A DNA stretch of 64,000 bases, taken from assembly GCF_004116495.1 (NCBI RefSeq), contig NZ_PDKC01000009.1, positions 1 to 64,000 of the forward strand, written 5' to 3'. The DNA is from Arcobacter sp. CECT 8985. GTDB lineage: Bacteria; Campylobacterota; Campylobacteria; Campylobacterales; Arcobacteraceae. Shown piece after piece: positions 42,582 to 44,600 of the stretch. Numbering within the stretch: position 1 is the stretch's first letter; each line of letters begins with the position of its first letter. The notes beneath the pieces are model-generated. The model was not told the origin of the DNA and searched no databases. It was given only the letters and a program-made list of their open reading frames with translations. Position numbers and translations under genes: made by a program.

Positions 42582-43028
42582 CTACTCTCCAATAATATCA
42601 ATTTTTAAATTTGCATGAACTGCATGACCTAATTTACAATCAATTTCGTAAATTCCAGGAGCTTTAATCTTTTTATCAACAGTAATATTCTTTTTATCAA
42701 TTGTTATATTAAAATCTTTTTCTAAAGCATCACTGATCTCTTTATTTGTAACAGAACCAATTAAATGTCCATTAGCACCTAGTTTATGTTTGATTGTTAA
42801 TTTTGTAGCATTAAGTTTTTCTGCTAAAGTTTTTGCTTGAGCAATCTCTTCAGCTTCAATTTCTTTTTCTCTTTTTTTCTGAGCTTCATATTTTTTTAGT
42901 ACATCATTAGTAGCATGTAAAGCCAGTCCTTTTCCAATTAAGAAGTTTTTACCATAACCATCTTTTACTTCTTTAACTTCACCAGCTTTACCTAAGCTTT
43001 TTACATCTTTTATTAATAATACTTTCAC
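42582..43028 (-). CDS. rplI: Ribosomal protein bL9
   Basis: 148 residues. N-terminal rRNA-binding domain with [10 protein letters not shown] and [10 protein letters not shown], a long connecting helix, and the C-terminal domain with L-F/I-G-S-V-T. Normal length. It heads the rplI-hslV-hslU operon, a common order in this phylum. Confidence 0.97.
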
Positions 43029-43096
43029 AATAACTCCAATATTTGTTTAATTGATGATTATTGTACAATAATTAATTTAAAGTAAAAATAAATAAT

Positions 43097-43738
43097 TTAA
43101 CTTGCTATATCAAGTGTGTTTTTTATATTCTCTCTTATATTTCTTTTTTTAACATAATTGTTTAATCCAATATGATTACTATAACCTAAAAGTTTTGCTA
43201 TTTTTCGTACTGATAAACCAACCCCTAATAACTCTTCAATCTTTTCCCGTTGAGCATCAAATTTTGATTTTTGAATTGTGCCTTTTGGTTTTCCAAGATG
43301 AGCACCTTCTAATTTTTTTGCAGTTAATGCTTCTTTTGTTCTTATACTCATTAACTCTTTTTCTAATTTTAAAGTCATTGAAATTACACCTAAAATCATC
43401 TGTGTTAACATATCATTGTCATCAATTAAATCTAAGTTTTGTCTTATTACTATTATTCTTATTTTATTACTTAGCAAAAATTTAACTATCTCTAAAATTG
43501 TTTCAGTTGTTCTTCCAAATACATTTAAATCTGCAACTAAAAGAGTAGTTTTACTTTGACAACTTTTCAAAAAATCTAACATATTTTTTTCTTCATGTGG
43601 AGTATTAATTTCTATCTCAATACTTTGAAAAATCTTTATATTTTTCTTCTTTATATACTCCTGCAAAATCTTACTTTGTTGTTGGGTATACGACTCATTA
43701 TTTTTATTAACTCGAATAAAACTAAAAATTTTAGACAT
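43097..43738 (-). CDS. Degenerate serine recombinase-like DNA-binding protein
   Basis: 213 residues with the layout of a resolvase/invertase: N-terminal resolvase domain (about 1-140), the long helix with E-K-E-L-M-S-I-R-T-K-E-A-L, L-G-K-P-K-G, and a C-terminal helix-turn-helix (V-G-L-S-V-R-K-I-A-K-L-L-G-Y-S). The active-site segment reads F-I-R-V-N-K-N instead of Y-x-R-V-S, so the nucleophilic Ser is Asn; the D-R-L-x-R block reads L-N-V-F-G-R, losing Asp and one Arg. It is therefore probably unable to recombine DNA. No inverted repeats or mobile-element boundaries were seen. AAAGGA precedes the ATG. Confidence 0.82.
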   Translation of the reverse strand: MSKIFSFIRVNKNNESYTQQQSKILQEYIKKKNIKIFQSIEIEINTPHEEKNMLDFLKSCQSKTTLLVADLNVFGRTTETILEIVKFLLSNKIRIIVIRQNLDLIDDNDMLTQMILGVISMTLKLEKELMSIRTKEALTAKKLEGAHLGKPKGTIQKSKFDAQREKIEELLGVGLSVRKIAKLLGYSNHIGLNNYVKKRNIRENIKNTLDIAS

Positions 43739-44045
43739 AAAGATTCCTTTTACATTAAGTATTATATTTATATTTTTATATAAACATATTGTTTAAGTTT
43801 TAATTATTATATTTATACGAAATGTTAATACAAATTTGATAAATATATTCTTAATTTTTTCTTATTAGCATCCTTTTTTTCAATATTTACTCTTTTTGTC
43901 TTATACAAGTATTTGTTATACAATTTGAAAATTGAAAATAAGTACACTTTAAAAGCTCTTTTGATTTGTTTTTATTTGATTTGCTATAAAGCATTTTTTG
44001 GCTAATATTTATTTTGTTTATTTAAACCTTGTTAAAGGATTTGTA
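43739..44045. other. Divergent intergenic region, 307 bases
   Basis: Very A/T-rich and gene-free. On the plus strand a near-consensus promoter (43896-43924) is visible, followed by about 115 bases of leader before ubiX; it includes a short hairpin TGCT-ATAA-AGCA followed by six T (about 43983-44000) that is too weak to call a terminator. On the minus strand a TATAAT-like box lies before the recombinase gene. No RNA gene, tRNA or long repeat is recognised. Confidence 0.6.
43896..43924 (+). promoter_or_regulatory. Promoter upstream of ubiX
   Basis: -35 TTGTCT (43896-43901) and -10 TACAAT (43919-43924) with the ideal 17-base spacer. It would start the ubiX-coaD-tmk-hisS-speA-cysE transcript with a leader of about 115 bases. 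Confidence 0.6.
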
Positions 44046-44600
44046 TTGAAATTAGTTGTTGCAATAACAGGAGCAAGTGGCTCAAGTTTAACTTTAAAAT
44101 TTATTGATAAACTTCCAAAAGATATTGATCTTTATTTGGTAGTTTCAAATAGTGCAAAACTAGCACTACAACTTGAAGAAAACATCTCAATTAGAAACTA
44201 TTTTGAAAAAAGAGAAAATATAACAATATTTAAAGACAATGATATTTCAGCATCAATTGCTTCAGGTTCATTTGGTATAGATAAGATGATTATTTTGCCA
44301 TGTTCTATGAATACTCTTGCAAAATGTGCGGTTGGAATTTCTGATACTTTAATTACAAGAGCTTTTACTGTTATGTTAAAACAAAAAAAAGATATTATTT
44401 TAGCTCCAAGGGAGATGCCTTATAATCCAATAATTTTAGAAAATATGCTAAAACTATCAAAACTTGGTATAACAATTGCACCACCAAGTCTTGGTTACTA
44501 TTCAAAACAACAAACACTTGAAGATATGGAAAATTTTCTAATTGGTAAATGGTTTGATTTATTAGGTATTGAAAATAATTTATATAAAAGATGGGAATAG
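44046..44600 (+). CDS. ubiX: Flavin prenyltransferase UbiX
   Basis: 184 residues. Makes prenylated FMN for UbiD-type decarboxylases. A-I-T-G-A-S-G-S-S near the N-terminus binds FMN; P-C-S-M-N-T-L-A-K, A-P-R-E-M-P-Y-N and the C-terminal G-K-W-F-D-L-L follow the family. TTG at 44046 is chosen because AAAGGA lies six bases upstream and the residues after it match the family's start; an earlier TTG (43998) would add 16 unsupported residues. Confidence 0.95.
   Translation: MKLVVAITGASGSSLTLKFIDKLPKDIDLYLVVSNSAKLALQLEENISIRNYFEKRENITIFKDNDISASIASGSFGIDKMIILPCSMNTLAKCAVGISDTLITRAFTVMLKQKKDIILAPREMPYNPIILENMLKLSKLGITIAPPSLGYYSKQQTLEDMENFLIGKWFDLLGIENNLYKRWE

Follow-up and report, generated by a model that had tools for sequence, protein, structure and literature searches.

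A serine recombinase without its catalytic serine raises the question of what such a protein still does and why its gene is kept. The case considered here comes from Arcobacter sp. CECT 8985 and lies in a stretch of 64,000 nucleotides (positions 1 to 64,000 of contig NZ_PDKC01000009.1), referred to below as the window. The gene occupies 43097..43738 on the minus strand and starts with ATG, and its 213 codons contain zero internal stops, in agreement with the uninterrupted 213-residue frame given in a preliminary description of this DNA. The product, a degenerate serine recombinase assigned with its close orthologues to group A, comprises a resolvase domain (residues 1-146), which includes a long E helix (110-143), and a C-terminal helix-turn-helix (HTH) domain at about 156-204. 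Its match to Pfam Resolvase scored 59.6 bits (cut-off 23.3), and its match to HTH_38 scored 26.4 bits, slightly under the cut-off of 27. The NCBIfam model for Mpi invertases (PRK13413) gave 84.9 bits, below its curated cut-off of 272, a value likewise not reached by the catalytic-type paralogue L086 at 157 bits. An AlphaFold2 model from a 24-sequence alignment (pLDDT 82) placed a 34-residue helix at the position of the recombinase E helix, and a Foldseek search with this model returned a Tn3 resolvase-DNA complex at the top (5cy1, E 5e-8), with gamma-delta complexes also ranked first. Pfam, AlphaFold2, and Foldseek agree on a resolvase fold with a long E helix and a C-terminal HTH, and the preliminary view that the HTH end is intact is further borne out by alignment, in which this DNA-binding half is nearly invariant and the most conserved part of the protein (column conservation averages 0.92 over residues 146-201 vs 0.57 over residues 1-40).

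The active site was compared in a MAFFT alignment of 172 proteins, comprising 54 close orthologues (group A, window protein included), four proteins from genus g8 (group B), 100 members of a second degenerate lineage (group C), and 14 catalytic-type paralogues (group X). Asn11 pairs with the catalytic Ser both in this alignment and in a phmmer alignment to Tn3 resolvase 5cy1, as had been proposed from the sequence. Among the 53 group A rows with a residue in the nucleophile column, 48 have Asn, three have Ile, and two have Ser (L050 and L052), and the catalytic Ser is therefore lost in 51 of 53. A nearby serine, Ser16 of the N-E-S-Y segment, had been flagged as a possible occupant of the active site; it was rejected as the nucleophile because it falls off the active-site column in both the phmmer and the MAFFT alignments. 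In gamma-delta numbering for these columns (R8, D67, R68, R71, and R125), the second catalytic Arg (R68) is absent in 54/54 group A proteins, replaced by Val in 52, the window protein among them, and by Ala or Ser in two, while the first (R8) is kept in all 53 rows with a residue, and the third (R71) and the E-helix Arg (R125) are kept in 54/54, the latter confirming an earlier observation. The preliminary description had listed the Asp and one catalytic Arg as gone, and of these only the Arg carries weight; the loss of the Asp means little because the D67 column holds Ser in 12 of the 14 catalytic-type paralogues. All 14 paralogues carry Ser at the nucleophile position and 12 retain the second Arg, and in the four group B rows the aligned nucleophile residue is Ser, the first Arg is replaced by Lys, and the second Arg is missing. 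The full catalytic set was present in none of the close relatives in the alignment, and the window protein lacks the catalytic Ser and complete Arg set of active small serine recombinases such as Tn3/gamma-delta, Hin/Gin, and Mpi.

The gene is widespread in its family, the Arcobacteraceae, with matches at E <= 1e-3 in 57 of 60 other genomes (53 close and four in genus g8), and the window genome has one copy. Titled genome contigs, when scanned, yielded 36 loci, the best labelled Malaciobacter halophilus with 90 percent identity and the remainder Halarcobacter, Poseidonibacter, Aliarcobacter, and Arcobacter, with a few records labelled otherwise. Conservation across a bacterial family places the observation far beyond chance. 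The dN/dS comparison called for in the preliminary description gave omega values of 0.013-0.443 (median 0.226, all below 0.45) for 226 orthologue pairs with dS < 1 and a median of 0.065 for the 11 pairs with dS < 0.6, and judged by these ratios, selection on the group A gene is purifying. The genus g8 orthologues (L055-L058), from small genomes, are fast-evolved, with about 40 percent identity and a retained HTH, and all four loci are without a ubiX neighbour and without the upstream array described below in the DNA examined.

The usual setting of the group A gene is divergent from ubiX-coaD-tmk. In the window, ubiX, encoding a UbiX family flavin prenyltransferase, lies at 44046..44600 on the plus strand and is followed by coaD and tmk. 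Of the 48 loci that extend 900 bp or more upstream, 46 have ubiX as the divergent neighbour. Its start in the window is placed at TTG 44046, with TTG 43998 also possible, and the 307-base intergenic gap reported earlier is correct provided that the former is used. The rplI-hslVU neighbourhood mentioned in the preliminary description holds in the window, where rplI (42582..43028, minus strand; TIGR00158, 134 bits) lies downstream and is followed by hslV and hslU, with a promoter-like element of its own between rplI and the recombinase-like gene. This adjacency is not conserved beyond the window, rplI lying within about 450 bp in only 24 of 54 loci, whereas ubiX is. The interval between the two genes (43029-43096) also contains a perfect 14-bp palindrome, TTATTGTACAATAA, whose place in related loci is taken by a TTGTAnAAT-like -10 element of rplI. 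A role for the locus as a landmark at the origin or terminus was considered and rejected, map fractions varying among complete genomes when compared by eye.

Expectation maximisation on 47 recombinase-ubiX regions yielded the motif TAACATTTTGTATAA. The resulting site I, TAACATTTYGTATAA, matches 45 of the 47 loci at no fewer than 12 of its 15 bases and falls under this threshold in the other two. In 37 of the 45 loci it lies 87-92 bp from the start codon; the distance is 52-54 bp in five others, 98-99 bp in two, and 44 bp in one. When one locus per genus was considered (15 genera), C at +3 and G at +9 were invariant in 15/15. The window copy, TAACATTTCGTATAA (43813..43827, minus strand), is 89 bp away from the start codon and contains the dyad ACATTTCGT (43817-43825) and probably the -10 element (TATAAA, by eye). 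Within site I, TTGTATAA resembles a -10 element and a similar one occurs in the rplI promoters of the same loci, so the conservation of site I may partly reflect a promoter rather than an operator.

Further ACAnnnTGT-like dyads follow site I by about 33 and 65 bp, represented in the window by dyad II, ACAATATGT (43784..43792, minus strand), and dyad III, ACTTAATGT (43752..43760, minus strand), the latter with 5 of 6 fixed bases and adjoining the ribosome-binding site. The 39 loci with sufficient room contain 61 further dyads in which five or all six fixed bases match, at offsets of 34-36 bp (30 dyads) or 65-68 bp (31 dyads) and no others, compared with a mean of 16 and a maximum of 29 in dinucleotide shuffles, and exact dyads numbered 20 vs 0.5 in shuffles (at most 3); these controls leave in the shared ancestry among loci. 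The outer length from TGT to ACA is mostly 29-31 bp when the dyads are read as dimer sites, and site I and the two dyads therefore place half-sites 29-31 bp apart, as in resolvase sub-sites. Resolvase sub-sites measure 28-34 bp. The array thus has the form of res-type tandem dimer sub-sites upstream of the gene, with the promoter overlap identified by eye and dimer occupancy presumed.

This array is essentially confined to the group A promoter, as far as pattern searches indicate. A search of 61 family genomes gave 30 exact copies of site I, WAACATTTYGTATAA (about 32 for a reversed-pattern control, summed by eye), 21 of them at the recombinase-like gene, and the other nine copies are at unrelated genes, mostly inside ORFs. 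With one mismatch allowed, site I occurs 49 times in the window genome vs 87 for the reversed control, and the paired-dyad pattern occurs there once, at the recombinase-like gene. No second group A target was found by exact site I in the family genomes or by the paired dyad in the window genome, and a lone target would be unusual for a transcription factor.

The reading favored here, with a probability of roughly 75 percent, is that the group A protein derives from small serine recombinases, is catalytically dead, and has been domesticated to control its own gene through sequence-specific DNA binding. Sequence-level support for this role consists of the lost catalytic residues, purifying selection, vertical inheritance, the position and geometry of the array, and its near-uniqueness; dimerisation, binding of the protein to the array, repression rather than activation, and any further targets are what we infer. 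Dimers would form through the intact long E helix, and the two HTH domains of a dimer would contact TGT...ACA half-sites separated by about 30 bp. With the tandem sites occupied, the stretch between the -10 element and the ribosome-binding site would be filled and the promoter silenced, possibly with an effect on the divergent ubiX as well. Strand cleavage would have been lost and the autorepression half of a Tn3-type resolvase/res system retained, a proposal made because the catalytic residues are gone and because Tn3 TnpR represses from promoters inside res (PMC7157771). Against this reading stand the Ser at the nucleophile column of L050, L052, and the genus g8 proteins, the lack of the array at the g8 loci, the two loci with site I under threshold, the -10 resemblance within site I, and the failure of the searches above to find a second group A target.

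Other explanations account for some of the same features. The dead recombinase may be a structural protein that marks or loops one chromosomal place, with autoregulation as a by-product, and the single paired dyad in the window genome, the near restriction of site I to this locus, and three dyads at 31-34 bp steps, which suit a wrapped complex, would all accommodate such a role. It is nevertheless unlikely, as the array keeps a fixed distance to the start codon and runs across the promoter and the ribosome-binding site, as an operator would, the map position of the locus differs among complete genomes (by eye), and predicted operators stand at several promoters in the separate lineage C. Quite unlikely, too, is that the array belongs to another regulator, such as the HP1043/HsrA orthologue, while the dead recombinase acts elsewhere. 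Of 45 loci, 44 do have a TTAAG-N6-TTAA box just upstream of site I, where 3.7 would be expected, and the window copy (TTAAG-N6-TTTA, 8 of 9 bases; 43840..43854, minus strand) resembles the HP1043 consensus, published as ttTAAG-5bp-tTTAAg (PMC8345958). This box suggests control of the gene by the orphan response regulator of these bacteria, yet it is apart from the dyads, which are unlike it, the TGT...ACA outer length of 29-31 bp suits a recombinase dimer, and exact site I was not found at other conserved promoters in 61 family genomes.

It is very improbable that the gene is what is left of a mobile element in decay or encodes an active recombinase with an unusual nucleophile, an idea that draws on recombinase homology and the few relatives with Ser at the nucleophile column but conflicts with the fixed neighbourhood, omega values far below 1, the second Arg lost in 54/54, and Asn as the commonest residue at the nucleophile. 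A decaying gene was rejected by family-wide presence, alignment, and omega. The choice of a domesticated regulator over a decaying mobile gene, made in the preliminary description, is accordingly supported by retention in 57/60 genomes, ubiX in 46/48 loci, omega below 0.45, the conserved HTH half, and the operator-like array upstream.

A second degenerate lineage, group C, offers a comparison for the domesticated autoregulator proposed for group A. A profile built from ten relatives from other families strongly matched proteins in many of the phylum's genomes, and the lineage is present in eleven or more other families of the order (f2, f4, f6, f7, f10, f13, f16, f17, f18, f20, and f22). From these, 100 distinct proteins were extracted, and ccoG (TIGR02745, 468 bits; cut-off 316.7) lies directly downstream on the same strand in 98 of 100; of the two that differ, one lies at the end of a contig. 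The catalytic Ser is present in 2/100, the second Arg is absent among the residues listed, R71 and the E-helix Arg are mostly lost, and two cysteines are near-invariant (Cys87 in 99/100 and Cys212 in 98/100, L073 numbering), which makes a metal or thiol sensor possible.

The promoter of the group C genes themselves contains a predicted inverted operator, TGACG...CGTCA, of 38-40 bp. TGACG is found upstream in 90/100 and a TTGA[CT]..CGTCA-like..TAnnnT promoter form in 87/100, and inverted TGRCG/CGYCA pairs have an outer length of 38-40 bp in 71 of 77 cases, across 67/100 loci (shuffles: mean 0.1, maximum 1). A search for the operator without a -10 requirement gave many matches in coding sequence. 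The pattern TTGACNTTNNNCGYCA-N6-9-TANNNT, searched in 74 group C genomes, was found at 57 distinct places (by eye) in 51 genomes, compared with 3 for a reversed control, and 48 of the 57 are at the recombinase-like gene. The other nine comprise four places before a FAD oxidoreductase gene (Pyr_redox_2), two before a PF02579 gene, one before a small gene without a family match, and two in ORFs; the six FAD and PF02579 places come from five genomes of a single genus (g67). In loci with 6 kb of sequence, the FAD oxidoreductase neighbours ccoG in 7/14 and PF02579 in 2/14, and an upstream half-site at 39-40 bp is present in 6/7 of these FAD, PF02579, and small-gene promoters. The operator thus follows operon genes when they are relocated, as expected of a transcription factor, and these relocated-gene operators are the best support for the group C protein, and by analogy the window protein, as a regulator. 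The group C protein appears to control a copper- and sulfur-related operon in the sister families. No such tie holds for group A and was rejected, as neither of the two ccoG homologues of the window genome (L091 and L092) is near the recombinase-like gene or near a site, and the FAD partner is present in 1/8 Arcobacteraceae genomes tried. By eye, one of these ccoG homologues is beside a TetR-type regulator gene and one is behind a proA-like gene.

Groups A and C share a superfamily, the loss of catalysis, a retained HTH module, and an operator array in their own promoter. They differ in that group C forms a separate branch (100/100), has mostly lost R71 and the E-helix Arg, carries the two cysteines, uses a TGACG...CGTCA operator of 38-40 bp, and sits in the ccoG operon. 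In a midpoint-rooted maximum-likelihood tree of 57 short rows that included 14 catalytic-type paralogues, groups A and B together formed another branch (100/100), placed among the catalytic-type paralogues with weak support (88/76), and two independent catalytic losses, in A and in C, are favored. A pair of proteins from genus g15, L089 (4030-4641, plus strand) and L090 (3960-4571, minus strand), retains the Ser, with the first catalytic Arg changed to Gly and the second to Lys, and is possibly a third degenerate lineage.

The window protein is similar to Tn3/gamma-delta resolvases in its fold, three catalytic Arg residues, and HTH end, and its array is similar to Tn3 res in its tandem sub-sites directly upstream, which overlap the promoter and have a divergent gene beyond. 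Unlike those systems, it lacks the nucleophile and second Arg, is associated with no transposon, and is inherited vertically in the chromosome, and its dyads are spaced 31-34 bp apart, tighter than Tn3 sites I and II. Mpi-type invertases (PRK13413) are the best named family, with a C-terminal SKFD..HTH module common to the window protein and the catalytic-type paralogues, but the window protein falls far under 272 bits and its catalytic residues are gone. A further likeness is to MrpR, the master repressor of prophage SPbeta, described as a recombinase fold that has lost recombination and become a DNA-binding repressor acting on repeated elements (PMC10516654). The window protein shares the catalytic loss and has a conserved array at its own promoter, known here from sequence, and would share repression. 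MrpR is a phage gene product with a tyrosine recombinase fold, whereas the window protein is a serine recombinase, chromosomal and family-wide.

It is known already that recombinases repress their own elements and that a dead tyrosine recombinase serves as a phage repressor. A literature search, with subscription papers mostly outside its scope, found no description of a serine-recombinase-derived chromosomal regulator in these bacteria for either lineage. A broader proposal, for which the odds are about even, is that Campylobacterota at least twice made serine recombinases into chromosomal transcription factors: a res-like autorepressor in the Arcobacteraceae and, elsewhere, a more degenerate two-Cys copper, redox, or sulfur sensor controlling ccoG, a FAD sulfide-quinone-reductase-like enzyme, and a PF02579 protein via an operator of recombinase geometry with half-sites 38-40 bp outer to outer. 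Because catalytic-type paralogues persist in genomes of the same family, these bacteria would then provide a clean natural test of the passage from mobile-element enzyme to regulator. If this reading is true, a dead serine recombinase fixed across families as a chromosomal regulator would be a new origin for transcription factors, ones whose operators are unusual and widely spaced, and the group C protein would be a candidate ccoG regulator in these bacteria.
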